Assembly (NCBI RefSeq): GCF_020042665.1
Contig: NZ_CP083376.1
Location: forward strand, 2,020,001 to 2,084,000
Reading direction: 5' to 3'
Source: Pseudoxanthomonas sp. X-1
Lineage (GTDB): Bacteria; Pseudomonadota; Gammaproteobacteria; Xanthomonadales; Xanthomonadaceae
Length of the DNA: 64,000 bases
The position numbers and the translations under genes were made by a program. Shown piece by piece: positions 16,616 to 38,033 of this stretch. The notes beneath the pieces are model-generated. The model was not told the origin of the DNA. It was given only the letters and a program-made list of their open reading frames with translations, and made no database searches. Numbering within the stretch: the first letter of the stretch is position 1; the number at the start of each line of letters is the position of its first letter.

Positions 16616-16629
16616 TGGAACCGATTACA
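16616..16629. promoter_or_regulatory. putative LacI-family operator before lacI (autoregulation)
   Basis: TGGAACCGATTACA matches the perfect palindrome TGTAAACGTTTACA found at 20889 in 11 of 14 positions, including the central CG and the TTACA half. It lies 39 bp before the repressor start codon. Confidence 0.5.
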
Positions 16630-16668
16630 GTCCGGGCTCGAACACGTCAGGCAGATCGCGGAGGGCGG

Positions 16669-17691
16669 ATGTCGCGAAGCGGAACCATCACCATCCGGGA
16701 TGTGGCGCGCGAGGCGCAGGTCTCGGTGGCGACCGTCTCGCGGGCCCTCAATGGCCACGCCAACGTCGCCGCGGAGGTGCGCAAGCTGGTCCTGGAGACC
16801 GCCCGGCGCCTGCGCTACCAGCCGCACGCGGCCGCGCGCAGCCTGAGCAGCCGCAGCACCCAGACCATCGGCGTGGTCCTGCCGGACCTGTACGGCGACT
16901 TCTTCTCCGAACTGATCCGCGGCATCGATGGCGTGGCGCGCGAGCATCGCCGCCATCTGCTGGTGTCCAGCTACCACGGCGCGCAGGAGGCCCAGGGTGC
17001 GGCGTTGCGCGCGATGCGCGGGCGCGTGGATGGACTGCTGGTGCTCTCGCCTTATGCCGACCAGCCGGGCTTCCTCACCGACAACCTGCCCGACGGCCTG
17101 CCGGTGGTGCTGATCAACACCCAGCTGCCCGAAGGCGACTATCCGGTCCTGAACATCGACAACCACGGCGGCGCGGTGACGATGATGCGCCACCTGGTGG
17201 CCAGCGGTCGCCGGCGCATCGCCTTCATTGCCGGGCCCGAAGGCAACTTCGACGCGGCCCAGCGCCTGCGCGGCTATCGCGACGCGCTGGCCGAACTGCT
17301 GCCCGGCGTGCCCGAACAGGTGCTGCCGGGGCGTTTCGACGAGGCCTCGGGAATGGAAGCCGGCACCGCGCTGCTGGCCGCCGAGCACAGGCCCGATGCG
17401 GTCTTCGCCGCCAACGACACGATGGCGCTGGGCTGTCTGTTCGCCTTCAACCAGGCCGGCCTGCGGGTGCCGCGGGACATCGCCCTGGCCGGCTTCGACG
17501 ACGTGCCGGTGGCGCGCTTCGTCCATCCCCCTCTGACCACCATGCGCATCAGCATCGCCGAACTGGGCGCCAACGCCCTGCGGCGGCTGCTCCAGGACAT
17601 CCAGGCAAAGGCGCCGCTGGCGCTGCCCGATCCACCACCCCTGATCCCCGAACTGGTCGTGCGCGCATCCGCACCGGCCGGACAGGGGTAA
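16669..17691 (+). CDS. LacI-family transcriptional regulator
   Basis: 340 residues. The ATG at 16669 follows GGAGGGCGG; an upstream in-frame ATG at 16564 lacks such a site. The helix-turn-helix and hinge (ITIRDVAREAQVSVATVSRA, then YQPHAAARSLSSRSTQTIGV) are classic for LacI/GalR. The ligand domain is of the ribose-binding type (FAANDTMALGCLFAFNQAG, then DIALAGFDDVPVARFVHPPL). It stands directly before a TonB receptor and a glucanase-ABC operon, so a sugar or oligosaccharide is the likely inducer. Matching palindromes at 16616, 20889 and 37906 define a putative local regulon. The actual ligand is unknown. Confidence 0.92.
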   Translation: MSRSGTITIRDVAREAQVSVATVSRALNGHANVAAEVRKLVLETARRLRYQPHAAARSLSSRSTQTIGVVLPDLYGDFFSELIRGIDGVAREHRRHLLVSSYHGAQEAQGAALRAMRGRVDGLLVLSPYADQPGFLTDNLPDGLPVVLINTQLPEGDYPVLNIDNHGGAVTMMRHLVASGRRRIAFIAGPEGNFDAAQRLRGYRDALAELLPGVPEQVLPGRFDEASGMEAGTALLAAEHRPDAVFAANDTMALGCLFAFNQAGLRVPRDIALAGFDDVPVARFVHPPLTTMRISIAELGANALRRLLQDIQAKAPLALPDPPPLIPELVVRASAPAGQG

Positions 17692-17693
17692 TT

Positions 17694-17722
17694 CCGCCGC
17701 GCCCCTTGCGCGGCGGCTTTCC
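17694..17722 (+). terminator. terminator after the LacI gene
   Basis: Perfect 9-bp stem CCGCCGCGC / GCGCGGCGG with loop CCCTT, followed by CTTT. The T run is short, so termination may be incomplete. Confidence 0.65.
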
Positions 17723-17752
17723 TCCGTCGCAGCACCTGCGTCGTTCTTGACC

Positions 17753-17771
17753 ACCCAAGCAGCGTTTGGGT
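17753..17771. promoter_or_regulatory. inverted repeat before the receptor gene
   Basis: ACCCAA and TTGGGT form 6-bp arms around GCAGCGT, 20 bp before the receptor ATG. It does not match the TGTAAACGTTTACA motif well. It could be an operator for another protein or an mRNA 5' hairpin. Confidence 0.3.
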
Positions 17772-17790
17772 ATGCCCCGGGAGGGCCAAC

Positions 17791-20700
17791 ATGAAGCACG
17801 TCCAAGCAAACCGATCCCACCGTTTCCGTCCCACGCGCCGGCTGCTCAGCTGCGCGCTCACCGGCTGCCTGGCGCTCGGCGCCGTGCCGCTGGCGTCGGC
17901 CCAGTCCACCTCGGCGACCCTGCGCGGCCAGGTCAGCGGTGCGGGCGAGGGCGCCACGGTGACCGTCACCAACACCAGCACGGGCCTGAGCCGTGCGGCG
18001 CGCGTGGGCGCCGATGGCAGCTACATCGTCGGCGGCCTGCCGCCTGGTCCGTACAAGGTCGACGTGGTCGCCGATGGCGCGGCCACCAGCAAGGAACTCA
18101 CCCTGCAGGTCGGGCAGACCGCCACGCTGAACCTGGAAGGCGCCGCCAGCGCGGCGGTCACGCCGGGCGGCCAGGCCAAGGACCTGGACGCGGTCAAGGT
18201 CACCGCGCCGCCGGTGATCGCCGAGACCAAGACCTCCGAGGTCGCCACCTACGTCAGCCAGGCACAGATCCAGGCCTTGCCGCAGGCGTCGCGCAACTTC
18301 CTGGCCTTCGCCGACACGGTGCCGGGCATGATCTTCGAGCAGTCCTCGGACGGCTCGGCCAGGCTACGCAGCGGCGCGCAGAGCAGCACCGGCACCAACG
18401 TGTTCATCGATGGCGTGGGGCAGAAGAACTACGTGCTGCCCGGCGGGGTCAGCGGCCAGGACTCCTCCAGCGGCAACCCGTTCCCGCAGCTGGCCATCGG
18501 CGAGTACAAGGTCATCACCTCGAACTACAAGGCCGAGTACGACCAGGTCTCCAGCGCGGCGGTGACCGCGTTGACCAAGTCGGGCACGAACGCATTCGAA
18601 GGGCACTTCTTCCGAGACTACACCACCGGCGACTGGCGCGCGCCGACCTACGCCGAGTCGCAGCCGGGCCAGGAGAAGGTCGATTCGAGCGAGGAGCAGT
18701 ACGGTGCGTCCTTCGGCGGCCCGATCGTGCGCGACAAGCTGTTCTTCTTCGCCACCTACGAGGCCAAGCGCATCGATCGCCCGCGCACTGTGCGGGTCGG
18801 CGACAGCGCCTTCGACCCGGCCGATCTCACGCCGGAACTGGCCGACTACCTGGGCCCGGCGACCGTGCCGTTCAAGCAGGACAACTACTTCGGCAAGCTG
18901 ACCTGGCAGGCCAACGAGAACAACCTGGTCGAGCTGTCGGCCAAGATCCGCGACGAATCCGAGCTGACCAACGTCGGCGACGGCCCGAACGTCTACAGCT
19001 ACGGCAGCGACAAGACCAACGATTCCAAGCGCTTCGACCTGCGCTGGCAGTTCAGCAACGAGAACTGGCTCAACGACCTGCACCTGACGCGCGAGGACGA
19101 TGCCTGGAGCCCGCGTCCGATCGGCGCCGGGCCCGGGTACGAGATCCGCAACAACCGCGTCAACAACACCGACGGCGAAGCCATCCTCAACCTCGGTGGC
19201 GGCCCGGACTACCAGGACAAGCGCCAGAAGGGCAACGGCCTGCAGAACGATCTGACCTTCTTCGGCTGGGAGGGCCATACCCTCAAGGGCGGGGTGAAGT
19301 ACAAGGACGTGGAAGTCGGCTCGCTGCAGCGCAATCCGGCCAACCCGCAGTACCGCGTGGATTACTACGAGAACCTGGCCGAAGGCCGCACGACGCTGGC
19401 GGATTTCGTCCCTTACCGGGTGAGCTTCCAGTCCTCGCTGCCGGGGCGCAGCGACGAGGCGGTGACGTCGAAGAACAAGCAGTTCGGCATCTATCTGCAG
19501 GACGACTGGCAGGTCACCGACAAGCTCGAACTGAACCTCGGCGTGCGCTACGACTACGAGAAGACGCCGGCCTACCAGGACTTCGTCACTCCGGCCGGCC
19601 TGGTCACCGCGCTGCGAGGGTGGAGCAACATCGCCAACACCGACTACGACATCAACGACTACATTTCCACCGGCTCCAACCGCAAGGCCGACAAGAACAA
19701 CTGGGCGCCGCGCTTCGGGTTCTCCTATGACCTGGCGGGGGACCAGCGGCACGTGATCTTCGGTGGCGCCGGGCGTTCGTTCGACCGCAACCTGTTCGAC
19801 TACCTGGCGCTGGAACAGCTGTCGACCTCCTTCGCGCCCTACACCTACAACTTCGACACCGCCGCGCATCCGTGCACGGTCGGGCAGGACACCTGCCTGG
19901 CCTGGGACCCGAGCTATTTCGATCCGGCCCGGCTCGACGCGCTGGCCGCGGCCAATCCGAACCTGGGCTCGGAGGTGACGCTGCTCAACAACCACCTCAA
20001 GACGCCGTATTCGGACCAGTTCAGCATCGGCATGCGCAACATCGTCGACCTGGGCGGCGTGGCGTGGAACACCTCGGTGGCCATCGCCCACGTGCGCAGC
20101 TACGACGGGCTGCTGTTCACCGGCGGCAACCGCTATCCGGACGGCTCCTTCCATGGCGATGGCGCGCAGTGGGCCAACTACGCCGGCAACGAGCCCATTC
20201 CCGGCTACGGCAACCTGATCCTGGTGGACAACGGCATCGACACCAAGCTCAACCAGCTGCTGCTGTCGGCCGACAAGCCGTACAGCGAGGAATCGCCCTG
20301 GGGCGTGACCATCGCCTACACCTTCAGCGATGCCAAGGAGAACCGGCTGAGCTCGGCCGATACCGGCGAGCATTACCTGTTCGACCTGCCCAACCTGGAC
20401 GGCCAGCCGTTCCTGCGTTCGGCCGGCGTGCCGCGCCAGCGCCTGGTGGTGACCGGGATGACCGGCTTCTGGGGCATCAACCTGTCCAGCAAGCTGACCC
20501 TGGCCACCCCCGAGCCCCTGGCCGCGGTGGACTGCCGGGCCGGGACGGGCGACTGCCGGTTCGCCTCCTACACGCCGGACCACACGCTGGGCTTCAAGCA
20601 GCTCGATCTGGCGCTGGAGAAGGTGTTCGATACGGGGACCGACATCAAGATGCGCATCCGTGGCGATGTGTTCAACGTGTTCAACTGGAAGAACTTCACC

Positions 20701-20805
20701 CAGTACAACACCGACTACACCAGCGCCCTGCTGGGCACGCGCAACGGCACCGAGACGCAGTGGCCGCCGCGCATGTTCAAGCTCTCCTTCGGCCTGGACT
20801 GGTAA
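17791..20805 (+). CDS. Oar-like TonB-dependent outer-membrane receptor
   Basis: 1004 residues. The signal peptide ends near ASAQ (about 38). A carboxypeptidase-regulatory-like domain follows (TATLRGQ type, here ATLRGQVSGAGEGATVTVTN, to about 115). A TonB-box-like DLDAVKVTA precedes the plug and a long beta-barrel ending in the aromatic FKLSFGLDW. Oar-like receptors are abundant in Xanthomonas and Caulobacter and import oligosaccharides or peptides by proton-motive-force energy through TonB-ExbBD. Position after the LacI gene and before the glucanase and ABC importer points to a glucan oligomer as substrate (inference). The start has a GGGAGGG site. Confidence 0.92.
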   Translation: MKHVQANRSHRFRPTRRLLSCALTGCLALGAVPLASAQSTSATLRGQVSGAGEGATVTVTNTSTGLSRAARVGADGSYIVGGLPPGPYKVDVVADGAATSKELTLQVGQTATLNLEGAASAAVTPGGQAKDLDAVKVTAPPVIAETKTSEVATYVSQAQIQALPQASRNFLAFADTVPGMIFEQSSDGSARLRSGAQSSTGTNVFIDGVGQKNYVLPGGVSGQDSSSGNPFPQLAIGEYKVITSNYKAEYDQVSSAAVTALTKSGTNAFEGHFFRDYTTGDWRAPTYAESQPGQEKVDSSEEQYGASFGGPIVRDKLFFFATYEAKRIDRPRTVRVGDSAFDPADLTPELADYLGPATVPFKQDNYFGKLTWQANENNLVELSAKIRDESELTNVGDGPNVYSYGSDKTNDSKRFDLRWQFSNENWLNDLHLTREDDAWSPRPIGAGPGYEIRNNRVNNTDGEAILNLGGGPDYQDKRQKGNGLQNDLTFFGWEGHTLKGGVKYKDVEVGSLQRNPANPQYRVDYYENLAEGRTTLADFVPYRVSFQSSLPGRSDEAVTSKNKQFGIYLQDDWQVTDKLELNLGVRYDYEKTPAYQDFVTPAGLVTALRGWSNIANTDYDINDYISTGSNRKADKNNWAPRFGFSYDLAGDQRHVIFGGAGRSFDRNLFDYLALEQLSTSFAPYTYNFDTAAHPCTVGQDTCLAWDPSYFDPARLDALAAANPNLGSEVTLLNNHLKTPYSDQFSIGMRNIVDLGGVAWNTSVAIAHVRSYDGLLFTGGNRYPDGSFHGDGAQWANYAGNEPIPGYGNLILVDNGIDTKLNQLLLSADKPYSEESPWGVTIAYTFSDAKENRLSSADTGEHYLFDLPNLDGQPFLRSAGVPRQRLVVTGMTGFWGINLSSKLTLATPEPLAAVDCRAGTGDCRFASYTPDHTLGFKQLDLALEKVFDTGTDIKMRIRGDVFNVFNWKNFTQYNTDYTSALLGTRNGTETQWPPRMFKLSFGLDW

Positions 20806-20815
20806 CCTTGCGCCA

Positions 20816-20843
20816 CCCCGGCCGGTTCGCCGACCGGCCGGGG
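20816..20843. other. strong GC hairpin between receptor and glucanase genes
   Basis: Perfect 11-bp stem CCCCGGCCGGT / ACCGGCCGGGG with loop TCGCCG, 10 bp after the receptor stop. No T tract follows, so it may stabilise the receptor mRNA end or weaken read-through instead of acting as a classic terminator. Confidence 0.6.
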
Positions 20844-20888
20844 GACTCCCCGCACCGCTTTCGTTTTGCGCCGGACTTTGTTTGCAGG

Positions 20889-20902
20889 TGTAAACGTTTA
20901 CA
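20889..20902. promoter_or_regulatory. perfect LacI-family operator before the glucanase-ABC operon
   Basis: TGTAAACGTTTACA is a perfect 14-bp palindrome with the central CG typical of LacI/GalR operators. It ends at the A of an ATG (20902) and lies 13 bp before the TTG start of the glucanase gene. It stands out sharply from the GC-rich surroundings. Confidence 0.8.
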
Positions 20903-20915
20903 TGGATTCTGAGCC

Positions 20916-22577
20916 TTGAAGACGCGCCGACGCCTCACCTCGCTGCTGCCGATGACCGCATCGGCCCTGGCCGTGCTGCTGGCGGCATGCCAGCAGCAGC
21001 CCGAACCCACGCCCGTCAAGCCGGTCAAGGTGACCGGGCGTCCGCCCGTCGAGCTTCCCGTGGAAGACAAGAAACCCGAGCTGTCCCCGCTGTTCCGCGA
21101 CATCGAGCGCCGGACCTTCCAGTTCTTCTGGGACACCACCAACGAAAGCAACGGCATGACGCCGGACCGCTATCCTTCGCGGCCGTTCGCCTCGGTGGCC
21201 TCGGTGGGCTTTGCCCTGACCGCCTATCCGATCGGCATCGAGAACGGCTGGGTCAGCCGCAGCCAGGCGGTGGACCGCACGCTGACCACGCTGAAGTTCC
21301 TCTACGAGCTCAAGCAGGGCAAGCAGCCCACCGGCACGGCCGGGTACAAGGGCTTCTACTACCACTTCCTGGACATGCAGACCGGGCAGCGCTTCTCCAG
21401 CTGGGTGGAGCTGTCCACGGTGGACACCTCGCTGCTGCTGATGGGCGTGCTGTTCGCCCAGTCCTATTACGACGGCGACGACCCGCGCGAGAAGCAGATC
21501 CGCGACCTGGCCGAACAGATCTACCGGCGCGTGGACTGGACCTGGATCCAGCCGCGCTCGCCGCTGATCTCCATGGGCTGGTTCCCCGAGAGCGGCTTCA
21601 TCAACCACGACTGGACCGGCTACAGCGAAGGCATGATGGTCTACATCCTGGCGCTGGGTTCGCCCACCCATGCGGTGGAGCCCGACGCCTGGCAGGTGTG
21701 GACGCGGAGCTACAACGAGATCTGGGGCGTCTACCAGGGCCAGGAGTACCTGTCCTACGGCCCGCTGTTCACCCACCAGTACACGCACGTGTGGGTGGAC
21801 TTCCGCGGCATCCAGGACGACTACATGCGCGAGCACGGCATGGACTACTTCGAGAACAGCCGTCGCGCCGCCTACGCCCATCGCCAGTACGCCATCTCCA
21901 ACCCGATGAAGTGGAAGGACTACGGCGAGAACGTGTGGGGCCTGACCGCCTCGGACGGTCCGCAGCAGACCCTGCAGGAGTACCGCGGCGAGCAGCGCGA
22001 GTTCCGCCACTACTCGGCGCGCGGCGCCGGCCTGCGCGACAACTTCGACGATGGCACCATCGCCCCGACCGCGGCCATCGCCTCGCTGCCGTTCGCGCCG
22101 GAGATCGTGATCCCGGCCACCGAGGAGATGCACAAGCGCTTCGGCGACTACATCTATTCCAGCTATGGCTTCCTGGACGCGTTCAACCGCAGCTTCACCT
22201 ACGACATTCCGATCAAGACCGGCCGCGTGGTCCCGGACAACGGCTGGGTGGGCAGCGACTACATCGGCATCGACCAGGGCCCGATCCTGACGATGATCGC
22301 CAACTACCGCGACGATTTCGTCTGGAACGTGATGAAGAAGAACCCGCACATCCGCAAGGGTCTGGAGCGGGCGGGCTTCACCGGCGGCTGGCTGGCCGGC
22401 GATGAGAAGGACAAGGACGACAAGGACAAGAACGCGCAGGCCGAGGCCGCCAAGCCGGCCCAGGCGCCGGGCCAGATGGACGCGGCCACCGCACGCGCGC
22501 TGGGCACGGCCGAATCGCGCGTCCCCAATTCGCAGTCCGAGCCGCCGCAGCAGCAGCGCCCGCAGCAGCCCAAGTAG
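20916..22577 (+). CDS. glucoamylase-like (PF10091; GH144-type) glycoside hydrolase lipoprotein
   Basis: 553 residues, TTG start: the codon before it is a stop, and the next ATG (20952) would remove the positive signal region. The signal has lipobox LAAC (Cys25). The catalytic (alpha/alpha)6 domain shows FRDIERRTFQFFWDTTN, SSVGFALTAYP-type text (here ASVGFALTAYPIGI), YYHFLDM, SGFINHDWTGYSEGMMVYIL and GIDQGPILTMIANYR. Family members include endo-beta-1,2-glucanases (GH144), so a beta-glucan is the best guess; alpha-glucan cannot be ruled out. A Lys/Asp/Gln/Pro-rich tail covers about the last 60 residues. First gene of a four-gene operon with the ABC importer, directly behind a LacI operator. 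Confidence 0.85.
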   Translation: MKTRRRLTSLLPMTASALAVLLAACQQQPEPTPVKPVKVTGRPPVELPVEDKKPELSPLFRDIERRTFQFFWDTTNESNGMTPDRYPSRPFASVASVGFALTAYPIGIENGWVSRSQAVDRTLTTLKFLYELKQGKQPTGTAGYKGFYYHFLDMQTGQRFSSWVELSTVDTSLLLMGVLFAQSYYDGDDPREKQIRDLAEQIYRRVDWTWIQPRSPLISMGWFPESGFINHDWTGYSEGMMVYILALGSPTHAVEPDAWQVWTRSYNEIWGVYQGQEYLSYGPLFTHQYTHVWVDFRGIQDDYMREHGMDYFENSRRAAYAHRQYAISNPMKWKDYGENVWGLTASDGPQQTLQEYRGEQREFRHYSARGAGLRDNFDDGTIAPTAAIASLPFAPEIVIPATEEMHKRFGDYIYSSYGFLDAFNRSFTYDIPIKTGRVVPDNGWVGSDYIGIDQGPILTMIANYRDDFVWNVMKKNPHIRKGLERAGFTGGWLAGDEKDKDDKDKNAQAEAAKPAQAPGQMDAATARALGTAESRVPNSQSEPPQQQRPQQPK

Positions 22578-22582
22578 GCGAC

Positions 22583-23938
22583 ATGAGCGAGCCACGCCGT
22601 TTTCCCGCGCCCGCCGCACGCGCCCGCCGCCTGCGCGGTGCGCTGGCGCTGTTGCTGCTGGCGGGCATCGCCGCGCTGGCGGCCTGCGCGCCGCGCGATG
22701 CCCAGCGCACCACCGTGCGCTTCTGGGCGATCGGCCGCGAGGGCGAGGTGCTCGGCACGCTGCTGCCCGAGTTCGAGGCCGCCCATCCCGACATCCGCGT
22801 GGACCTGCAGCAGATCCCCAGCACCGCCGCGCACGAGAAGCTGCTGACCGCCTTCGCCGCCGACACGCTGCCGGACGTGTGCCAGCTGGGCAACACCTGG
22901 ATCGCCGAGTTCGCCACGCTCAAGGCGCTGACGCCGCTGGAGCCCTACGTGCAGCGCTCGGCGGTGGTCAAGCAGGACGATTACTTCCCCGGGATCTGGC
23001 AGACCAACATGATCGACGGGCAGCTGGTGGGCATCCCGTGGTATGTGGACACGCGCCTGCTGTTCTATCGCAAGGACATCCTGCGCGAGGCGGGCGTGGC
23101 GCTGCCGATCACCACCTGGGACCAGTGGAACGCGGCGATGGCGCGGATCAAGGCGCACGTCGGGCCGGACCGCTACGCCATCCTGATGCCGCTCAATGAG
23201 TTCGAGCAGCAGCTCTCGCTGGCCCTGCAGCAGGACGATCCGCTGCTGCGCGACCACGACAACCGCGGCAACTTCGAGAGCCCCGGCTTCCGCGCGGCGC
23301 TGGCGTTCTACGCCAACACCTTCGAGCAGGGCTGGGCGCCGAAGATGTCCGAGACCCAGGTCTCCAACGTCTGGGACGAGTTCTTCCGCGGCACCTATTC
23401 GTTCTACCTGTCCGGCCCCTGGAACATCCGCGAGTTCCGCATCCGCGCGCCCGAGGCGCTGAAGGATCAGTGGGGCACGATGGCGCTGCCGGGGCCGCAC
23501 GGACTGGGCGCGGGCATCGCCGGCGGCTCGAGCCTGGTGATCTTCCAGCGCTCGCGCAACAAGGACGCGGCATGGCAGCTGATCGAGTTCCTTTCGCGTC
23601 CCGACATCCAGCAGCGCTTCCACGCGCTGATCGGCGACCTGCCGCCGCGCCGCTCCACCTGGCATACGCCGCAGCTGGAAGGCGATCCGCTGGCGCGCGC
23701 CTTCGCCGACCAGCTCGAGCGGGTCAAGCCCACGCCCAAGGTGCTGGAATGGGAGCGCATCGTGCAGGAAATGCGGCTGGTGACCGAGCGTGTGGTGCGC
23801 GGTGGCGAACGCCAGGACGCGGCGGTGGCCGACCTGGACCAGCGCGTGGACAAGATCCTGGCCAAGCGCCGCTGGATCTATGAGCGCGACGACCATCCCG
23901 GCGCCGCCACCGCTGCCGAGACGGAGACCGCCCGATGA
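22583..23938 (+). CDS. sugar ABC transporter substrate-binding lipoprotein
   Basis: 451 residues. Lipobox LAAC (Cys35) follows a hydrophobic signal. The MalE/UgpB-type fold shows TTVRFWAIGREGEV, LPEFEAAHPDIRVDLQQIPS, PDVCQLGNTWIAEF and WNAAMARIKAH. It captures an oligosaccharide in the periplasm and delivers it to the two permeases encoded next. The gene starts 5 bp after the glucanase stop and overlaps the next gene by ATGA. The preceding glucanase suggests a short glucan as ligand (inference). Confidence 0.92.
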   Translation: MSEPRRFPAPAARARRLRGALALLLLAGIAALAACAPRDAQRTTVRFWAIGREGEVLGTLLPEFEAAHPDIRVDLQQIPSTAAHEKLLTAFAADTLPDVCQLGNTWIAEFATLKALTPLEPYVQRSAVVKQDDYFPGIWQTNMIDGQLVGIPWYVDTRLLFYRKDILREAGVALPITTWDQWNAAMARIKAHVGPDRYAILMPLNEFEQQLSLALQQDDPLLRDHDNRGNFESPGFRAALAFYANTFEQGWAPKMSETQVSNVWDEFFRGTYSFYLSGPWNIREFRIRAPEALKDQWGTMALPGPHGLGAGIAGGSSLVIFQRSRNKDAAWQLIEFLSRPDIQQRFHALIGDLPPRRSTWHTPQLEGDPLARAFADQLERVKPTPKVLEWERIVQEMRLVTERVVRGGERQDAAVADLDQRVDKILAKRRWIYERDDHPGAATAAETETAR

Positions 23939-24813
23939 ACCGTTCGCTCGCCGGATGGGTGTTTACCGCGCCGGCGCTGATCGTGCTGGGCGTGTTCTTC
24001 GGCCTGCCGGTGCTGGCCGCGCTGGCGCTGAGCGTCACCGACTTCGATCTCTACGCGCTGGCCGACCCGCACAACCTGCGCTTCATCGGGCTGGACAACT
24101 ACCTCGACCTGCTGCGCACGCCGATGTTCTGGAAGGCGCTGTGGAACACGACCTACTTCGTGCTGGTGGGCGTGCCGCTGTCCATCGCCGCCTCGCTGGG
24201 CGCCGCGCTGCTGCTCAACGCGCCGGCCGCGCGCTTCAAGGCCGTGTTCCGCACCGCGCTGTTCGCCCCGGTGGTGACCACGCTGGTGGCGGTGGCGGTG
24301 ATCTGGCGCTATCTGTTCAACACCCAGTACGGGCTGGTCAATTACGTGCTGGTGCACCTGGGGCTGCCGGCGCCGGACTGGCTGGGCGACCCGCACTGGG
24401 CCATGCCGATGATCATGCTGTTCGCGGTGTGGAAGAACTTCGGCTACAACATGGTGATCTTCCTGGCCGGCCTGCAGGCGATCCCGCAGGACCTCTACGA
24501 GGCCGCGCGCATCGACGGCGCCAACCGCTGGAAGCAGTTCTGGCACATCACCCTGCCGATGCTGGGCCCGGTGCTGCTGGTGGTGGGCGTGATCACCATC
24601 TCCGGCTATTTCCAGCTGTTCGCCGAGCCCTATGTGATGACCCGCGGCGATCCGCTGCAGAGCACGGTGAGCGTGCTGTATTTCATGTTCGAGGAAGGCT
24701 TCAAGTGGTGGAACCTGGGCCGCGCCTCGGCGGTGGCGTTCCTGCTGTTCCTGATCATCCTGGCGGTGACCACCGTGATGCTGCGCCTGGGCCGCAGGAA
24801 GGGGTTGGTATGA
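23935..24813 (+). CDS. sugar ABC transporter permease, MalF/LacF type
   Basis: 292 residues with six hydrophobic segments. The EAA loop that docks the ATPase is EAARIDGANRWKQFWHITLP. The N-terminus LAGWVFTAPALIVLGVFFG is typical of MalF-like CUT1 permeases. It overlaps the binding-protein gene by four bases. No ATPase gene is in this operon; the candidate is at 38034. Confidence 0.93.
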   Translation: MNRSLAGWVFTAPALIVLGVFFGLPVLAALALSVTDFDLYALADPHNLRFIGLDNYLDLLRTPMFWKALWNTTYFVLVGVPLSIAASLGAALLLNAPAARFKAVFRTALFAPVVTTLVAVAVIWRYLFNTQYGLVNYVLVHLGLPAPDWLGDPHWAMPMIMLFAVWKNFGYNMVIFLAGLQAIPQDLYEAARIDGANRWKQFWHITLPMLGPVLLVVGVITISGYFQLFAEPYVMTRGDPLQSTVSVLYFMFEEGFKWWNLGRASAVAFLLFLIILAVTTVMLRLGRRKGLV

Positions 24814-24853
24814 GGAGCTTGCGCACGTGCGCCCGGTGCGCGGGAGGCCTGGC

Positions 24854-25690
24854 ATGAGCCGCGAAGTCGGAGGCTCGCGCTGGAACGCGGTCCTGGTCAA
24901 CGGCGGCCTGCTGGCGCTGGCGATCGTCAGCCTGGCGCCGCTGGCATGGATGGTGTCGGTGTCGTTCATGCCGGCCGGCGAGGCCAGCCGGTTCCCGCCG
25001 CCGATGCTGCCCAGCGCCTCGACGCTGGCCAACTACCATCAGCTGTTCGAACGCACCGGCATGGCCGCCAACTTCGTCAACAGCCTGATCGTGTCGCTGG
25101 CCATCACCCTGGGCTCGCTACTGTTCAACACCCTGGCCGGCTACGCCTTCGCCAAGCTGCGCTTCACCGGGCGCGAGCGGGTGTTCCAGGTGCTGCTGGC
25201 CGCGCTGGTGATCCCGGCGCAGGTGGCGATGCTGCCGCTGTTCCTGCTGATGAAGCAGCTGCACCTGGTCAACAGCTTCGGCGGGGTGATCGTGCCGGCG
25301 CTGGCCACGGTGTTCGGCATCTTCCTGGTGCGACAGTACGCGCGCAGCATTCCCGATGAGCTGCTGGAGGCCGCGCGCATCGACGGCGCCGGCGAGCTGC
25401 GGATCTTCTTCCAGATCGTGCTGCCGATGCTCAAGCCGGTGCTGGTGACGCTGTCGATCTTCACCTTCATGGCGGCCTGGAACGACTTCATGTGGCCGCT
25501 GATCGTGCTGACCGACCAGGACCACTACACGCTGCCGGTGGCGCTGGCCTCGCTCTCGCGCGAGCACGTGATGGACGTGGAACTGATGATGGCCGGCGCG
25601 GTGGTGACGGTGGTGCCGGTGCTGCTGCTGTTCCTGCTGTTGCAGCGGTACTACATCCAGGGGCTGCTGCTGGGGAGTGTTAAGGGGTGA
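24854..25690 (+). CDS. sugar ABC transporter permease, MalG type
   Basis: 278 residues from the ATG at 24854, which follows CGGGAGG; an in-frame GTG at 24827 is less likely. Six membrane segments and the EAA loop EAARIDGAGELRIFFQIVLP are visible. It pairs with the preceding permease to form the CUT1 channel. Last gene of the operon; two strong hairpins follow at 25691-25753. Confidence 0.92.
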   Translation: MSREVGGSRWNAVLVNGGLLALAIVSLAPLAWMVSVSFMPAGEASRFPPPMLPSASTLANYHQLFERTGMAANFVNSLIVSLAITLGSLLFNTLAGYAFAKLRFTGRERVFQVLLAALVIPAQVAMLPLFLLMKQLHLVNSFGGVIVPALATVFGIFLVRQYARSIPDELLEAARIDGAGELRIFFQIVLPMLKPVLVTLSIFTFMAAWNDFMWPLIVLTDQDHYTLPVALASLSREHVMDVELMMAGAVVTVVPVLLLFLLLQRYYIQGLLLGSVKG

Positions 25691-26237: not shown

Positions 26238-26290
26238 CCAGGCCGCTGGTTCTCTGGCAACCTTCTATGAACTTCTCGATGGCTACTGAC

Positions 26291-29200
26291 ATGTCCCGTT
26301 GCCGCCCGCTTGTCGCTTTCTTGATCGCGCTTGGCCTGCCTGCGTCTGCGCAAGCGCAGACGCGCGTACTCGATGCGTTCGACGATCCTTCCACCTGGAA
26401 GGTGGTGACCTCCAACCAGGTCACCGCGAACCTGCGCACGATGACCGGGGCCGACGGCGGAAAGGCGCTGTGCCTGGACTACGACTACCACGGGGTGTCG
26501 GGTTACGCGGGCCTGCAGCGCCAGGTGGCGCTGGACTATCCGGACAACTACCGCTTCGACTTCCAGCTGCGCGGGGCCTCGCCGGCCAACGATCTGCAGT
26601 TCAAGCTCACCGATGCCTCGGGCGACAACGTGTGGTGGGTCAATCGGCCGGCCTACGACTTCCCCGGCGAGTGGACCCCGGTGACCTATCGCAAGCGCCA
26701 GATCGACAAGGCCTGGGGGCCGGACCCGGACAAGACGCTGCGCCACAGCGCCAAGCTGGAGTACACGATCTACAACAACGCCGGCGGCAAGGGCTCGGTG
26801 TGCTTCGACGCGCTCACCTTCACCCCGCTGCCGCCGGAGGACACCAGCCCGCTGCGCGGCGCGGTCAGCGCCTCGACCGCCAACGGCGGCAGCAGCGCTG
26901 CGCTGGCGGTGGACGGCAATCCGGACACGGCCTGGTATGCGGACTTCGATGCGGCGACGCCGCCGCAGCTGACCCTGGACCTGCGCAGCGTGCGTGAGTT
27001 CGGCGGCCTCAAGCTGGTGTGGAAGCCGGGCGAGGAGGCCAGTGATTACCTGGTGCAGCTGTCCGACGACGGTGTGCAGTGGCGCGATGCGCGCGCGGTG
27101 GTCGATGGCGACGGCGGTACCGACTGGATCGCGCTGCCGGAAACCCAGGCGCGTTACGTACGCGTGCTGCCGTCGGAAGGGCCGCACAATTCCTTCGGCC
27201 TGGCCGAGCTTCAGGTCCTGCCGCTGGCTTTCTCGGCCACGCCCAACGAGGTGGTCAAGGCGATCGCGGCCGCCTCGCCCAAGGGCTGGTATCCGCGCGG
27301 CTTCAGCGGCCAGCAGCCCTACTGGACCATCCTCGGCCTGGATGGCGGCACCGAACAGGGGCTGATCGGCGAGGACGGCGCGGTCGAGGTCGCGCGCGGG
27401 GGCTTCAGCGTGGAGCCGTTCGTGGTGACCGACGGGCGGCTGCTGAGCTGGGCCGACGTCAAGGCGCAGCAGCGCCTGCAGGACGGCTATCTGCCCATTC
27501 CCAGCGTGGAATGGAGCCACCCGTCGCTGACGCTGACCACCACGGCCTTCGCCGACGGCACGCCGGCCGACGCGCAGCTGGTGGTGCGCTACACGCTGCG
27601 CAATCCCGACAGTCGCGCGCATGCCTATCGCCTGGCATTGGCGCTGCGGCCGTTCCAGGTCAACCCGCCGACGCAGTTCCTGAGCGTGCAGGGCGGCGTG
27701 AGCCGGATCGAATCGCTGGCCTTCGACGGGCGCACCGCGCGCGTCAACGGCGCGCCGCGGGTGTTCGCCTCACAGGCGCCCGATGCGACCTTCGCCACCA
27801 GCTTCGATGGCGGTATGGCGGTCTCGCATCTGCTGGATGCCACGCTCCCGCAGCGCGCCGGGGTCGACGACGACACCGGCCTGGCCTCGGGGGCCTACGT
27901 CTACGAGGTGGAACTGGAACCGGGCCAGTCGCGCCAGTTCGACCTGCGCATTCCGATGACCGGCAAACCGCGCTGTTCGAGCAGCGTCGCCGCCGCCGAC
28001 TGCGGCGCGCAGGCGCGCCAGGACGCGGTGGCGGCGATGTGGCGCGACAAGCTGGACCGCGTGCGCTTCACCGTGCCGGCCGCCGGCCAGCCGCTGGTCG
28101 ATACGCTGCGCACCGCCACCGCGCACATGCTGATCTCGCGCGTGGGGCCGCGCCTGCAGCCGGGCACGCGCTCGTACAACCGCAGCTGGATCCGCGACGG
28201 CGCCATGATCTCCGAAGGCCTGCTGCGCATGGGCCGCCCGCAGGTGGTGCGCGATTACATCGCCTGGTATGCGCCGTTCCAGTTCAAGGACGGCATGGTG
28301 CCGTGCTGCGTGGACCGCCGCGGCAGCGACCCGGTGCCGGAGAACGACAGCCATGGCGAGCTGATCTTCGCCATCGCCGACTACTGGCGCTACACCGGCG
28401 ACACCGCCTTCGTGCAGCGCATGTGGCCGCACGTGGAGGGCGCCTACCGCTACATGGAACAGCTGCGCCTGTCCGAGCGCACCGAGCAGAACCGCGCCGT
28501 GGACCCGGCGTTCTACGGGATGATGCCGGTGTCGATCAGCCACGAGGGCTATTCGGCCAAGCCGGTGCATTCGTACTGGGACAACTTCTGGGCACTGCGC
28601 GGCTACAAGGACGCGGTCGAACTGGCCCAGGTCCTGGGCAGGACCGAGGATGCCAAGCGCATGGCCGCCTCGCGCGATCAGTTCCGCGCCGACCTGATGG
28701 CGTCGCTGCAGGCGGCGGCCCGCGGACACGGCATCGATTTCCTGCCGGGCTCGGCCGAACTGGGCGACTTCGATTCCACCTCGACCACCATCGCCCTGGC
28801 GCCGGGCGGCGAGCAGGGCCAGCTGCCGCAGCCGCTGCTGGACAACACCTTCCAGCGCTACTGGACCGAATTCGAGCGCCGCGCCGACGGCCAGCGCGCG
28901 TGGAAGGACTACACGCCCTACGAGTGGCGCAACGTGGCCGCGTTCGTGCGGCTGGGCTGGCGCACGCGCGCCAACCGCGCGGTGGACTTCTTCTTCGCCC
29001 ATCGCACCCCCCAGCCGTGGAACCAGTGGGCCGAGGTGGTCTCGCACACGCCGCGGGTGCCGTTCTTCCTGGGCGATCTGCCGCATGCCTGGGTCGGGTC
29101 GGACTTCGTGCGTACCGCGCTGGACATGTTCGCCTACACGCGCGAGCTGGACGACAGCCTGGTGCTGGCCGCGGGCATCCCGCCGGCGTGGCTGGACGGG

Positions 29201-29449
29201 CAGGGCATCGCCATCGCCGGCCTGCGCACGCCCGACGGCCCGCTGAGCTACACGCTCAGGCGCGCCGATGGCCAGCTGCAGCTCGACGTGCCCGCCGGCC
29301 TCAAGCTGCCCAAGGGCGGCCTGGTCCTGCCCTGGCCGTACGCGGGCACGCCGGGCCAGGCGACCATCGACGGCAAGGCGGCGCAGTGGCAGGACGGCGC
29401 ACTGCGCATCACCCGGCTGCCGGCGACGGTGCGGATCGCCGCGCCGTGA
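26291..29449 (+). CDS. secreted multidomain glycosidase with discoidin (F5/8 type C) domain
   Basis: 1052 residues from the ATG at 26291; in-frame ATGs at 26267 and 26279 are alternatives and none has a clear ribosome-binding site. The signal MSRCRPLVAFLIALGLPASA is good. A jelly-roll carbohydrate-binding-like domain (about 25-180) precedes a discoidin domain (about 190-310, ending RYVRVLPSEGPHNSFGLAEL). A beta-sandwich and an (alpha/alpha)6 catalytic domain follow (SYNRSWIRDGAMISEGLLRM, DNFWALRGYKDAVELAQ, YEWRNVAAFVRLGW). This six-hairpin glycosidase fold suits removal of glucosyl units from oligosaccharides delivered by the neighbouring glucanase. The substrate is unknown. It ends 36 bp before a REP hairpin. 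Confidence 0.82.
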   Translation: MSRCRPLVAFLIALGLPASAQAQTRVLDAFDDPSTWKVVTSNQVTANLRTMTGADGGKALCLDYDYHGVSGYAGLQRQVALDYPDNYRFDFQLRGASPANDLQFKLTDASGDNVWWVNRPAYDFPGEWTPVTYRKRQIDKAWGPDPDKTLRHSAKLEYTIYNNAGGKGSVCFDALTFTPLPPEDTSPLRGAVSASTANGGSSAALAVDGNPDTAWYADFDAATPPQLTLDLRSVREFGGLKLVWKPGEEASDYLVQLSDDGVQWRDARAVVDGDGGTDWIALPETQARYVRVLPSEGPHNSFGLAELQVLPLAFSATPNEVVKAIAAASPKGWYPRGFSGQQPYWTILGLDGGTEQGLIGEDGAVEVARGGFSVEPFVVTDGRLLSWADVKAQQRLQDGYLPIPSVEWSHPSLTLTTTAFADGTPADAQLVVRYTLRNPDSRAHAYRLALALRPFQVNPPTQFLSVQGGVSRIESLAFDGRTARVNGAPRVFASQAPDATFATSFDGGMAVSHLLDATLPQRAGVDDDTGLASGAYVYEVELEPGQSRQFDLRIPMTGKPRCSSSVAAADCGAQARQDAVAAMWRDKLDRVRFTVPAAGQPLVDTLRTATAHMLISRVGPRLQPGTRSYNRSWIRDGAMISEGLLRMGRPQVVRDYIAWYAPFQFKDGMVPCCVDRRGSDPVPENDSHGELIFAIADYWRYTGDTAFVQRMWPHVEGAYRYMEQLRLSERTEQNRAVDPAFYGMMPVSISHEGYSAKPVHSYWDNFWALRGYKDAVELAQVLGRTEDAKRMAASRDQFRADLMASLQAAARGHGIDFLPGSAELGDFDSTSTTIALAPGGEQGQLPQPLLDNTFQRYWTEFERRADGQRAWKDYTPYEWRNVAAFVRLGWRTRANRAVDFFFAHRTPQPWNQWAEVVSHTPRVPFFLGDLPHAWVGSDFVRTALDMFAYTRELDDSLVLAAGIPPAWLDGQGIAIAGLRTPDGPLSYTLRRADGQLQLDVPAGLKLPKGGLVLPWPYAGTPGQATIDGKAAQWQDGALRITRLPATVRIAAP

Positions 29450-31635: not shown

Positions 31636-31739
31636 TTTGCGGAACTTGCGGCGACGGCGGGGGAGCGCAGCCTACCAACTCGCGTGGCGAGACGGGTCCG
31701 GTCGCATCGCACACCGCGTTGCGGCGTTGCCGTTCGCAC

Positions 31740-31767: not shown

Positions 31768-31787
31768 AGAAGCGCTTTCACGCATCG

Positions 31788-33095: not shown

Positions 33096-33531
33096 GGACG
33101 TAGCCTCCGATGCGGGCATCGCGCACGGCGATCAGCACATTGCCGATGGCCAGCAGCAGCACGGTCAGCGCCGACAGCCACACGCCGGCGGGGATCACGG
33201 CATAGGCGTCGCGGCTGTGCACGAAGGCATTGAAGATCGCCGCGACGATGGCCAGCAGGTTGAGCCAGAAGGCCAGCCGGTCCGCGCCGAGCGCGCTGCG
33301 GCGCCCCGTGATCCACACCTGGGCCAGGTTGACCAGGCGCGGGATGATGGCCGCGACCAGGCCCAGCACGATCAGCCACGCGGCGCTCTTCATCCACAGG
33401 ATCACGCCGGTGTTGGCGTAGGTGATGTCGAAGATCAGCGCGGCGACGAAGCAGCCGAACGGGATCGGATTGAGCAGCCCGTAGAGCGCGGCGGCGACGG
33501 CCGAGCGTCGCGGTGCGGTGAGCGATGTCAT
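33088..33531 (-). CDS. DUF2231-type small membrane protein
   Basis: 147 residues with four hydrophobic segments (near 12-32, 42-66, 85-103, 113-135). The N-terminal ALYGLLNPIPFGCFVAALIF fits DUF2231, where such proteins often accompany periplasmic oxidoreductases. Here it is co-transcribed with and overlaps the sugar dehydrogenase gene, so a role in its electron transfer is a reasonable inference. Confidence 0.85.
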   Translation of the reverse strand: MTSLTAPRRSAVAAALYGLLNPIPFGCFVAALIFDITYANTGVILWMKSAAWLIVLGLVAAIIPRLVNLAQVWITGRRSALGADRLAFWLNLLAIVAAIFNAFVHSRDAYAVIPAGVWLSALTVLLLAIGNVLIAVRDARIGGYVHD

Positions 33532-33918
33532 GACGAGGTCTCGAAGCGGGGACAGGCGTCCCGCGCGGCGATCGACGCAGGACGCCGGTCACTGTCCTCG
33601 CCCGGATGTGGAAGTGGCGTGGTGGCCGCTACCGCGCGACGGTGCGTCCAGTCGCGCGTGGGCGCTGCCACCGCTGGCGCTGCCTTGTCACTCCCGCGAA
33701 TGCGGAAATCCAGTGGCTTTCATGCGCAAGCTCCAAAGGCCCTGGATTCCCGCTTTCGCGGGGATGACGATGGGATGCGTTGTTGCCACCTCAGGGAGGC
33801 GTGCTCCTAGCCCCAAGGCGGCGCGGAGCGCTTCCTGCGCAACCAGGTCGGTGAATTCAGATGCAGGTGCGGCAGGTGCAGGACACGCAGGTGCTCGCAG
33901 CGCCTGCACGGGCGACAC
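33532..33918. other. intergenic region with CCCGCG-type repeat pair
   Basis: Lies between the end of eda and the start of the DUF2231 gene, both leftward. It holds the repeat pair at 33688-33770. No convincing gene was seen; the promoter of the DUF2231-dehydrogenase pair should lie near 33540-33600. Confidence 0.5.
33688..33770. repeat. dispersed inverted repeat, CCCGCGAAAGCGGG family
   Basis: Two copies face each other: GTCACTCCCGCGAATGCGGA... at 33688-33714 and its partner CTGGATTCCCGCTTTCGCGG... at 33742-33768. Each has its own small hairpin. This family is found in many proteobacterial genomes between genes. Confidence 0.8.
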
Positions 33919-34578
33919 TCAGCCGCCACGCGCCTGCCTGACGATCTGTGCGGCGCGCGCGGCGGTCTCGCGGACCGAGGTCCAGTCGCCCGCGGCGATC
34001 CACTGCTTGGGCACCATCCACGAACCGCCGATGCACACCACGTTGGGCTGGGCCAGGTATTCGGCGGCGGTGGCCTCGGTGATGCCGCCGGTGGGGCACA
34101 GCTTGAGCTGCGGGACCGGCCCGTGCAGGCCCTTGATCATCGCCAGCCCGCCCACCGCGTTGGCGGGGAACAGCTTGCACACGTGGAAGCCCAGTTGCAG
34201 CAGGGTCAGCAGTTCGGTCGGCGTGGCCGCGCCGGGAATGACCGGGATGGGCGCGGCAGCCAGGGCTTCGGCCATGTGCGCCGGCGTGCCGGGGGTGACG
34301 ATGAAGTCCGCGCCGGCGCCCACGCACTGGCCGATCTGGTCGATGGTCAGCACCGTGCCCGCGCCGATGGCGAACTGCGGCAGCTCGCGCTTGAGCGTGG
34401 CCAGCGCGTCCATCGCCACCGGCGTGCGCAGGGTCAGCTCGATCACGGGCAGGCCGCCTTCCAGCAGCGCATGGGCCACGCCGCGGGCCTGGTCCAGCGT
34501 GTCCACCGCGACCACCGGCAGGATGCCGGCGCGGCGGAGCAGGTCTTCGGTCTGTTGCTGGCGCTTGGAGATGATCAT
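33919..34578 (-). CDS. eda: 2-dehydro-3-deoxy-6-phosphogluconate aldolase (KDPG aldolase)
   Basis: 219 residues. The catalytic Glu is in VIELTLRTP and the Schiff-base Lys in [30 protein letters not shown] binds phosphate. It cleaves KDPG to pyruvate and glyceraldehyde 3-phosphate, the last Entner-Doudoroff step. It lies 44 bp after edd in the same direction. The start at 34578 matches the usual length; the longer open frame runs into edd. Confidence 0.96.
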
Positions 34579-34622
34579 GGTCGTGCCTTGCGTGCGTGGA
34601 AGGGGATGGGGCAGGGCGCCGC

Positions 34623-36533
34623 TCAGGCGTCCTTGGCCTCGTGCGGGGCCGCGGCGGCCTGTTCGGTCTCGCCCAGCTCGTATTCGGCATCGACTTCCCA
34701 GCCGTGCTCGGGCGTGGGCGGGCCGCAGGAAATGGACACCGCGCCCTGGTCGGCCGGCGAGACCTGCGCGCGATTGAGCGCGAACAGGTTGCGGCCCAGG
34801 TCGTGCGACGGCCGCGCGGTGTCGGGCGCCAGCGTGCGCAGCTTCCATTCCTCGGCATCGACCTGCGCCTCGAGCACGCCGGCCTCGGCGTCGAGCAGGA
34901 TCATGTCGCCCTCGCGCAGGCGCGCCAGCGGGCCGCCGGCGGCGGCCTCGGGCGTGATGTGGATCGCGGCCGGGATCTTGCCCGAGGCGCCGGACAGGCG
35001 GCCGTCGGTGACCAGCGCCACGCGCCGGCCCTGGTTCTGCAGCAGGCCCAGCAGCGGCGCCAGCGAATGCAGCTCGGGCATGCCGTTGGCGCGCGGGCCC
35101 TGGTAGCGCACCACCGCGACGAAGTCCTGCGGCAGGGCGCCGGCCGCGTGCAGCTTGTTGAGGCTGCGCGGGTCGTCCACCACCACCGCCGGCGCGTGGA
35201 TGCGGCGGTACTCGGGCTTGACCGCCGAGGTCTTGATCAGCGAGCGCCCCAGGTTGCCGCGCAGCAGGCGCAGGCCGCCCTGGGCCTCGAACGGCGCCGA
35301 CACCGGCCGCACCACCTTCTCGTCGGCGCTGGTGGCGATGCCGGGGCTGTAGGCCAGCTGGCCCTCGACCAGGCGTGGCTCGTCACAGTAGGCGCGCATG
35401 CCGCCGGCGACGATGGTCGGGATGTCGTGCATCAGCCCGGCATCGAGCAGCTCGCGGAACACGAACTGGGTGCCGCCGGCGGCGGCGAAGCGGTTCACGT
35501 CGGCCTCGCCGTTGGGATACACGTGGGCCAGCAGCGGCACCACCTGCGAGATCTCGTCGATGTCGTCCCAGGTCAGCACGATGCCGGCCGCGCGCGCCAC
35601 CGCCACCCAGTGGATGGTGTGGTTGGTCGAGCCGCCGGTGGCCATCAGCGCGGCGATCGCGTTGACGATCGCGCGCTCGTCCACCAGCTGGCCGATCGGG
35701 CGATAGTCCTCGCCCAGCGCGGTGATCCGCAGCGCGCGCTCGGCGGCCGCGCGGGTCAGCACGTCGCGCAGCGGCAGGTCCGGGTTGACGAAGCTGGTGC
35801 CCGGCAGTTGCAGGCCCATGGCCTCGAGCAGGGTCTGGTTGGAGTTGGCGGTGCCGTAGAAGGTGCAGGTGCCGGCGCCGTGGTAGCTGGCCGATTCGGC
35901 CTCCAGCAGCTCTTCGCGCGTGGCCTCGCCGGCGGCGTAGCGCTCGCGCACGGCGGCCTTTTCCTTGTTGGGGATGCCCGGGGTCATCGGCCCGGCCGGC
36001 ACGAACACCGCGGGCAGATGGCCGAAGGCCAGCGCCCCCATCAGCAGGCCCGGCACGATCTTGTCGCACACGCCCAGGTAGAGCGCCGCGTCGAACATGT
36101 CGTGACTCAGCGAGATCGCCGTGGCCTGGGCGATGACATCGCGCGAGAACAGCGACAGCTCCATGCCCGGCCGGCCCTGGGTCACGCCGTCGCACATCGC
36201 CGGCACGCCGCCGGCCACCTGCGCGGTGGCGCCCAGCTCGCGCGCCAGCTGGCGGATCATCTCGGGGTAGTGCTCGAAGGGCTGATGCGCCGAGAGCATG
36301 TCGTTGTAGGCGGTGACGATGCCCAGGTTGGGCGTCACGTCCGCGCGCAGCCGGCCCTTGTCGGTCGGCCCGCATGCGGCGAAGGCGTGGGCCAGGTTGC
36401 CGCAGCTCAGGCGGGTGCGCTGCGGGCCCTCGCGGAGCACCGCGTCGATGCCTTCCAGGTAGGCCTGGCGCGGCTGCGCGCTGCGGCGGCGGATGCGGTC
36501 GGTAACGGCTTCGATGCGCGGGTGCAGGGTCAT
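34623..36533 (-). CDS. edd: 6-phosphogluconate dehydratase
   Basis: 636 residues, compared with 603 in E. coli. IlvD/Edd signatures are present: [20 protein letters not shown], the [14 protein letters not shown] segment and [15 protein letters not shown]. Conserved cysteines in [15 protein letters not shown] support a 4Fe-4S cluster. It converts 6-phosphogluconate to KDPG for Eda. Own palindromic site upstream at 36591. The position next to glk fits glucose catabolism by the Entner-Doudoroff route. Confidence 0.96.
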
Positions 36534-36590
36534 GGCAGGCGGCTGTGACAGGCGGGAAGGAGGACGCGTCGCACACCGGGCTGAACAAGA

Positions 36591-36609
36591 CCACTGGCAA
36601 TACCAGTGG
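36591..36609. promoter_or_regulatory. putative operator before edd
   Basis: CCACTGGCAATACCAGTGG has perfect 7-bp arms. It lies 58-76 bp before the edd start. It does not match the LacI palindrome at 20889, so a different regulator of the Entner-Doudoroff genes is implied. Read on the edd strand, ACTGGTATTGCCAGT has some likeness to GntR/HutC-type sites. Confidence 0.5.
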
Positions 36610-36703
36610 CGTCCTGTATTCCGCTGCGGTGGTCAGCAGGCCCTAAGTCTAGCGCGATCGCACGACACCTGGGCACGCAGCGGAGATACCAATGTAATTC
36701 CAG

Positions 36704-37732
36704 TCAGGCGACAGGAGGGGCGGGCGCGTGCTTGTTGGGCGGCCCGAATACCTCCACCGCCATGGCGGCGGCGCCCAGCAGGCCCGGCTGCTTGTGCAGG
36801 TTGGCCAGCACCGGGATCTTGCCCATCGCCGGCGAGAAGCGGCCCTTGTGCTCGAAGCGCTGGCGAAAACCCGAGCGCTGCAGCTGCGGCAGCAGGCGCG
36901 GGACCAGGCCGCCGCACAGGAACACGCCGTCCCAGGCGCCCAGGGTCAGCACCAGGTCGCCGGCGATCGCGCCGAACACGGCGAAGAACACGTCCAGCGC
37001 ATGCAGGCAGCGGGCATCGCCCTCGGCCGCGCGCGCGGTCACGTCCGAGGGCTGCATCGGGCCCGGATCCTCGCCGGCCATCTCGCTCAGCGCGCGATGG
37101 ATGTTGACCAGGCCCGGCCCGCAGATCAGCCGCTCGTTGGACACCCGGCCGAACTGGCGCGAGAGCCGCTCCAGGATCTCGATCTCCTCCGGATTGCCCG
37201 GCGGGAAGCTGACATGGCCACCCTCGGTCTCCAGCGCATAGCGCTTGCCGTCGCGCACCAGCAGGCCGCCGGCGCCCAGGCCGGTGCCCGGGCCGATCAC
37301 CGCGTAGGTCAGGTTGCGCGTCAGCGGCACCGGCTTCCACGGCGCCGGGCCGACCTGGGCCACATCGTCCGGGCCCAGCAGGGAGGCGGCCATGGCCTGG
37401 GCGGCGAAGTCGTTCATCAGCTTCACGCCTTCGAAGCCGAGCATCTTCTTCAGCCGCGGCACCCGGATCACCCAGGGGTGGTTGGTGACGCGGACCTCGT
37501 CGCCATCGACCCGGCCGGCGGCGGCGAACACGCCGTTGCGCGCGGTGGTCCCGGTCTGGTCCATGTAGTGCTTGGCCGCATCGGCCAGCGAGGGGAAGTC
37601 GGCCACGACGTATTCGCGCGTGCTGTCCAGCAGCAGCGGGTTGTCGGCGGCGGTGTCGGCCAGCGCGAAGCGCACGTTGGTGCCGCCGATATCGGCCAGC
37701 AGGACGCACTGCGCGGGGTCGGGAGAGCTCAT
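36704..37732 (-). CDS. glk: glucokinase
   Basis: 342 residues from the ATG at 37732. Phosphate-binding LLADIGGTNVRFAL, substrate-site NDFAAQAMA, GPGTGLGAGGLL, ETEGGHVSFPP and the C-terminal VFLCGGLVPRLL match the ROK-unrelated proteobacterial Glk family. It phosphorylates free glucose, the product expected from complete glucan breakdown by the neighbouring glycosidases. It is 170 bp upstream of edd, same strand. Confidence 0.95.
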   Translation of the reverse strand: MSSPDPAQCVLLADIGGTNVRFALADTAADNPLLLDSTREYVVADFPSLADAAKHYMDQTGTTARNGVFAAAGRVDGDEVRVTNHPWVIRVPRLKKMLGFEGVKLMNDFAAQAMAASLLGPDDVAQVGPAPWKPVPLTRNLTYAVIGPGTGLGAGGLLVRDGKRYALETEGGHVSFPPGNPEEIEILERLSRQFGRVSNERLICGPGLVNIHRALSEMAGEDPGPMQPSDVTARAAEGDARCLHALDVFFAVFGAIAGDLVLTLGAWDGVFLCGGLVPRLLPQLQRSGFRQRFEHKGRFSPAMGKIPVLANLHKQPGLLGAAAMAVEVFGPPNKHAPAPPVA

Positions 37733-38033
37733 GCGGGATTCCTGGAACGAGGAAGAAGGATTGGGCGCCGGCCGCGTCGACGGGCCGGGGCGCGAGGCGC
37801 GACGGATGGTAGCGCGGGGCCTGACCAGGCCATACGGCGCATACGAATGCGGGGGAGCTCGCGACATCGCCCCCTCCGGCAAGTCGACTGATGGGATCGG
37901 CGTGGTGAAAACGCTTACATGGCAGAATACCGCGTCGCGCCTGCGCTCGTCACCGGGTCGGGCGTAGCCTTCGCCGCAGCGCGCGCCCAGCGCGATGCCG
38001 TGTGCGGTGCAGCAACGAAACTAGGGAGACACG
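37733..38033. other. divergent promoter region of glk and the ABC ATPase gene
   Basis: About 300 bp without a gene. It contains the LacI-type operator at 37906-37919. glk is read leftward and the ATPase gene rightward, so one site could influence both. Confidence 0.6.
37906..37919. promoter_or_regulatory. putative LacI-family operator before the ABC ATPase gene
   Basis: TGAAAACGCTTACA agrees with the perfect palindrome at 20889 in 12 of 14 positions, with the central CG and the TTACA half kept. It is 114 bp before the ATPase start codon. Confidence 0.6.

Follow-up and report, generated by a model that had tools for sequence, protein, structure and literature searches.

A probable LacI-family regulon for beta-1,2-glucan use that includes a detached MalK-type ATPase gene

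In a 64,000-nucleotide stretch of the chromosome of Pseudoxanthomonas sp. X-1 (the window; genome of 4,517,037 bases in a single contig, labeled G000), genes for the use of beta-1,2-glucan very likely belong to a regulon of one local LacI-family repressor, which also takes in a detached malK gene and a GH3 gene. This assigns a testable function to vaguely or doubtfully named genes, such as those for a MalE-like binding protein and a "discoidin domain" hydrolase, in Xanthomonas, Stenotrophomonas, Lysobacter, and Pseudoxanthomonas. It also illustrates how one regulator can preserve the unity of a transporter whose ATPase gene has relocated.

Searches against Pfam and NCBIfam confirmed the gene layout of a preliminary description, which had recognized an importer operon with two permeases and a binding protein but no ATPase, and a glycosidase, glk, edd, and eda between this operon and a malK gene. 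On the forward strand, a LacI-family regulator (16669..17691; PF00356 and PF13377, over cut-off) is followed by a TonB-dependent receptor (17791..20805; PF25183 and PF00593) and a predicted GH144 beta-1,2-glucanase with a lipoprotein-like signal by eye (20916..22577; PF10091). Next come the sugar-binding protein of the importer (22583..23938; PF01547), its two permeases (23935..24813 and 24827..25690; each PF00528), and a CBM-bearing six-hairpin glycoside hydrolase of an uncharacterized family (26267..29449; PF00754, with weak PF17389 and PF06202). The genes eda, edd, and glk, named by family assignment, occupy the reverse strand (33919..37732), and the MalK-type ATPase returns to the forward strand (38034..39113; PF00005 with PF17912 and PF08402, OB and TOBE domains). 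The stretch between the importer operon and malK also contains genes for an LLM monooxygenase and a flavin reductase, as well as a GSDH-like gene.

The palindrome TGTAAACGTTTACA occurs at three or fewer mismatches in three places in the window, all on the forward strand and all at the positions first described. These are TGGAACCGATTACA before lacI (16616..16629; three mismatches, matrix score 23.1), TGTAAACGTTTACA itself, the perfect operator, upstream of the GH144 operon (20889..20902; no mismatches, score 26.7), and TGAAAACGCTTACA before malK (37906..37919; two mismatches, score 23.5). The scoring matrix was built from orthologous sites of other species near GH144 and lacI having at most three mismatches to the preliminary consensus, taken from 61 (GH144) and 64 (lacI) of 80 named loci, with malK and GH3 sites left out. 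Under this matrix from other species the three operators were the top three positions of the window; the next best scored 1.3, and the best in 10 Markov-simulated windows reached 8.5. None of 100 dinucleotide shuffles of the window contained three TGTAAACGTTTACA-like places (mean 0.07). No scoring site was found directly before the TonB receptor in the window, and two promoter scans of the sequence returned 0 promoters each.

At the scale of the whole genome, three or fewer mismatches says little, because 12 places were found against 10 for a reversed-pattern control. The pattern TGNAANCGNTTNCA gave 11 places against 2, and the stricter TGWAANCGNTTWCA gave 5 against 0. Random occurrence of the motif throughout the genome had been named beforehand as an argument against a regulon; this holds for the loose class, which is close to its control, and fails for the strict sites, which exceed theirs. 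Across the family, 281 strict sites were counted in the 61 genomes with both the LacI and the binding protein (mean 4.61; three have none), compared with 10 in the 50 genomes with neither (mean 0.20). The reversed-pattern control yielded 6 and 1, respectively. Chance occurrence of the sites was rejected on the basis of the shuffles, the matrix scores, the strict-site counts, and these per-genome counts.

The site at 37906 lies 128 bp before the malK ATG (38034), and its conservation bears out, at the level of sequence, the proposal that a single LacI regulon includes the detached malK. A site scoring at least 16 within 250 bp upstream of malK was present in 36 of 40 and 20 of 22 relatives (56 of 62), a score attained by 0 of 2000 simulated upstream stretches. 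The site persists even where 71-510 kb separate malK from the binding protein gene. Nine relatives (L248, L249, and L252-L258) have malK 1.5-2.1 kb beyond the CBM-hydrolase, there too with a site of its own. We surveyed 44 fetched clusters of relatives, counting only readable cases for each gene. Sites preceded lacI in 38 of 38 clusters, malK in 11 of 11, the GH144 gene in 20 of 42, and the TonB receptor gene in 13 of 39, and were absent before the inner genes for permease 1 (0 of 44) and the CBM-hydrolase (0 of 41). In 12 of 42 clusters neither the TonB receptor nor the GH144 gene had a site, and 10 of these had one before lacI only; transcription of the operon there may start at the lacI promoter, or the operon may have dropped out of the regulon.

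Six of the 62 relatives lack a scoring malK site (G009, G025, G079, G103, G043, and G053), four of them (G009, G079, G103, and G053) from one genus, g10. The presence of LacI in G009, G025, G079, and G103 counts against the regulon reading. Three of the g10 genomes (G009, G079, and G103) keep LacI and the lacI site and have none before GH144 or malK, as if their LacI now controls itself alone.

Relatives of the window LacI (E <= 1e-60) were found in 67 of 119 family genomes, made up of 61 among the 63 that have the binding protein, plus six that lack it. In two of these six (G002 and G029), strict sites adjoin lacI. The protein combines an HTH with a periplasmic-binding-protein-like sensor domain, and a CG-centered palindrome is conserved before its proposed targets. 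G043 and G053, which have the importer and malK and no LacI match, serve as a natural control: neither has a scoring site before malK or GH144, and G043 shows a weak site (score 13) behind the CBM-hydrolase. A paralog at G000:1125021 (62% identity) might instead bind some or all of the sites, as its recognition helix, VSVATVSRALNG, is identical to that of the window LacI and a related site, TGTAAGCGCTTGCA, precedes its gene. We regard this as distinctly unlikely, given that the malK site was kept in 46 of 50 relatives with one LacI match, 10 of 10 with two, and 0 of 2 with none (E <= 1e-60, matched by hand). The paralog belongs to a second lacI-TonB pair (G000:C1:1125021-1126010 and the next TonB gene; L033) whose receptor is 43% identical to that of the window, and the pair appears to be a duplicated module devoted to a different sugar.

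The proposal that the malK gene 17 kb away supplies the missing ATPase was likewise upheld. For eleven of the 13 permease matches in the genome, a MalK-related ATPase match lies no more than about 1.3 kb away, and the only permease pair without a nearby ATPase, genome-wide, is that of the window. Among the three ATPases most like the window MalK, itself included, the other two adjoin permeases, which leaves the window MalK as the one that has none beside it. With the MalK-type ATPase and its OB/TOBE domains added to the binding protein and the two permeases, the parts of a CUT1-type importer are all present. Because the two orphans pair, share the same presence and absence, and are accompanied by a conserved site, the window MalK is probably the missing ATPase and would assemble with the importer permeases. 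A multitask ATPase of the MsmX type was also considered and rejected, since the genome has a single ATPase-less permease pair.

Joint presence was assessed among 119 family genomes with cut-offs of E <= 1e-60 for the binding protein and E <= 1e-70 for malK; each was found in 63 genomes, and the two sets of 63 coincide. The malK gene had first been searched at E <= 1e-150 (31 of 119), and 1e-70 was picked afterwards. Genera g5, g13, g40, and g44 each contain members with both genes and others with neither. Among 62 relatives, the distance between malK and the binding protein gene was below 9 kb in 13, 9-20 kb in 35, and above 20 kb in four (71, 83, 86, and 510 kb), with the genes on different contigs in the other 10. 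As malK lies within 20 kb in 48 of the 62, joint presence may partly reflect inheritance as a block, an explanation that applies less where malK is far from the binding protein.

Judged by its sites, the regulon is wider than the window and includes the gene for a cytoplasmic GH3 beta-glucosidase at another chromosomal location. This GH3 gene, with no signal peptide by eye, begins just behind TGAAAACGTTTTCA at G000:4359682. Its site (score at least 15, within 400 bp) was found at 23 of 29 relatives' loci, with five lacking it and one cut by a contig edge. Two of the 23 site-bearing genes are only 57% and 47% identical to that of the window genome (L285 and L286), and the last base of the site deviates in 14 of the 23, which counts against membership. 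The five relatives without it (G025, G043, G053, G079, and G103) all lack the malK site as well. Altogether, the GH3 and malK sites were either both present or both absent in all 28 relatives that allowed the comparison (Fisher P 1e-5; the genomes are treated as unrelated, so P values overstate independence). In the window genome, the GH3 site follows TTGGCA-16-TAGAAT by 3 bases (by eye). This is a plausible promoter, and a site directly behind it suits repression.

Further members are less certain. A GH3 gene with a Tat-like signal has a high-scoring site (G000:2910863; score 27.2) that is poorly conserved, being retained at four or fewer mismatches in 2 of the 7 closest relatives (L190-L196), namely L190 with three mismatches and L196 with one. 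A second CBM-hydrolase, 33% identical to that of the window (3944599; L031:5389-8760), is preceded by TGAGAACGTTTACA, which ends 12 bp before its ATG and scores 17.2. Another candidate site, at 1310030, falls in the gap that separates a TonB receptor gene from a pyruvate-oxidase-like gene. Separately, TGGAATCGATTCCA lies 109 bp before a gene resembling glyceraldehyde-3-phosphate dehydrogenase (name by eye; L186:1501, G000:C1:3090970), and is possibly the site of another LacI.

Beta-1,2-glucan is the most likely substrate of the regulon. With a match of 892 bits to XCC2207 (PDB 8xul), the PF10091 enzyme is homologous to this characterized member over the catalytic domain; it is 97% identical to the GH144 protein of a Pseudoxanthomonas winnipegensis strain. 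XCC2207 is XcSGL of X. campestris, reported as a GH144 protein that hydrolyzes beta-1,2-glucan (PMC12102758), and the orthology of the window enzyme to XcSGL points to the same substrate. The glucan pathway of the preliminary description is thereby narrowed to beta-1,2-glucan, and its Entner-Doudoroff part is not supported (see below). The same regulon could serve another sugar, such as maltose, trehalose, or general beta-glucosides, with GH144 in a minor role. The best solved match of the binding protein is 3uor (665 bits), X. citri Xac-MalE, which PMC7676653 calls a putative maltose/trehalose-binding protein while giving the specificity as unknown. The second-best, Lin1841 (5ysb; 197 bits), is encoded in a Listeria cluster whose proposed substrate is beta-1,2-glucan (PMC3960220). 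The GH144 ortholog cuts beta-1,2-glucan, and the linked GH3 enzyme belongs to a beta-glucosidase family; because of these enzymes we consider a maltose or trehalose regulon unlikely and retain beta-1,2-glucan.

The most novel part of the operon is the uncharacterized CBM-bearing hydrolase. By sequence it has solved relatives for the CBM part only, and no characterized relative was found in the libraries searched. In fold comparisons of its structural model (m0f99643a31c4; pLDDT 83.5), GH94 phosphorylases and dextran dextrinase came closest, with identities of 10-14%. The protein probably carries a secretion signal (by eye), an argument against a phosphorylase role.

Coregulation of an Entner-Doudoroff route through glk-edd-eda had also been put forward, and this part found no support. 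The site at 37906 does sit in the divergent gap between glk and malK, 174 bp before the glk ATG (37732), and G106 (L134) is arranged alike. In addition, the Caulobacter LacI-family regulator GluR is reported to control zwf-pgl-edd-glk (PMC4052901). However, 24 of the 27 fetched loci that have no glk in the 1.5 kb before malK keep the malK site, and in L251 glk is 3.2 kb from the site, which precedes malK by 80 bp. Where glk (3 of 3) and edd (3 of 3) stand away from malK, no site precedes them in the readable clusters. Only 2 of 29 loci have glk in the 1.5 kb before malK, L134 with the site and L140 without it. On these grounds control of glk-edd-eda was rejected as the main role of the site, and regulation of these genes from 37906 at all appears very improbable. 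An effect on glk is possible in G106, where glk and malK share a gap containing the site.

From these data we infer the following model of repression by the window LacI. Without inducer, the repressor would sit on CG-centered palindromes (about TGWAAACGNTTWCA) before its own gene, the operon of GH144, binding protein, permeases, and hydrolase, the detached malK, and the cytoplasmic GH3 gene. A breakdown product, which may be sophorose, a longer oligosaccharide, or glucose, would release it. Glucan would cross the outer membrane by way of the TonB receptor and be cut by the GH144 enzyme, and the binding protein, two permeases, and MalK would import the pieces, from which the cytoplasmic GH3 enzyme would free glucose for glucokinase. 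More tentatively, and with somewhat less than even confidence, we suggest a family-wide beta-1,2-glucan regulon in which the ATPase serves one importer alone, became separated from it in several lineages, and stays tied to it through the shared operator. In this extended form, the CBM-bearing six-hairpin hydrolase would found a new glycosidase family acting on beta-1,2-glucan, perhaps cyclic or substituted.

The style of control is known, and we found no earlier description of this conserved beta-1,2-glucan set in the literature searched; a prior prediction in RegPrecise or in the supplement of PMC4052901 is possible. Local LacI-family sugar regulons (PMC4052901) share the CG-centered palindrome, a regulator beside its targets, and sugar genes; the main text of that paper has no mention of xanthomonad, glucan, or malK. 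The Listeria innocua cluster lin1838-lin1843 likewise combines LacI, GH3, and ABC importer genes, and lin1841-lin1843 are proposed to take in beta-1,2-glucooligosaccharides (PMC3960220). It uses a GH94 phosphorylase, and neither a TonB receptor nor GH144 is named in its description there. The orphan multitask ATPases MsmX and MsmK are also encoded apart from permeases, but they serve several importers (PMC7658222), whereas the window malK has a single orphan permease pair and the regulon's own operator. The X. campestris sux locus and other carbohydrate loci with TonB receptors likewise combine the receptor with sugar genes and a repressor of LacI type; the transporter of sux is of the MFS type, unlike the ABC importer of the window (PMC1790865). 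The same paper names XCC2208 as a receptor without a canonical plug, and XCC2207/2208 are not described as a regulon in its account of these loci.

Three further records are of note. Another LacI gene of the window genome (L007; G000:C1:2254511) is preceded, at a distance of about 130 bp, by a perfect 18-bp palindrome, ATTGGGAACGTTCCCAAT. The cluster also appears amid Stenotrophomonas-like content in a record titled Bacillus subtilis (L052; JAHREJ010000018.1), probably a mislabeled or contaminated assembly. Finally, the lacI-TonB-GH144-importer cluster occurs at NZ_CP010410.1:12006-20949, a 508-kb Xanthomonas sacchari record from a plasmid collection and a putative plasmid.
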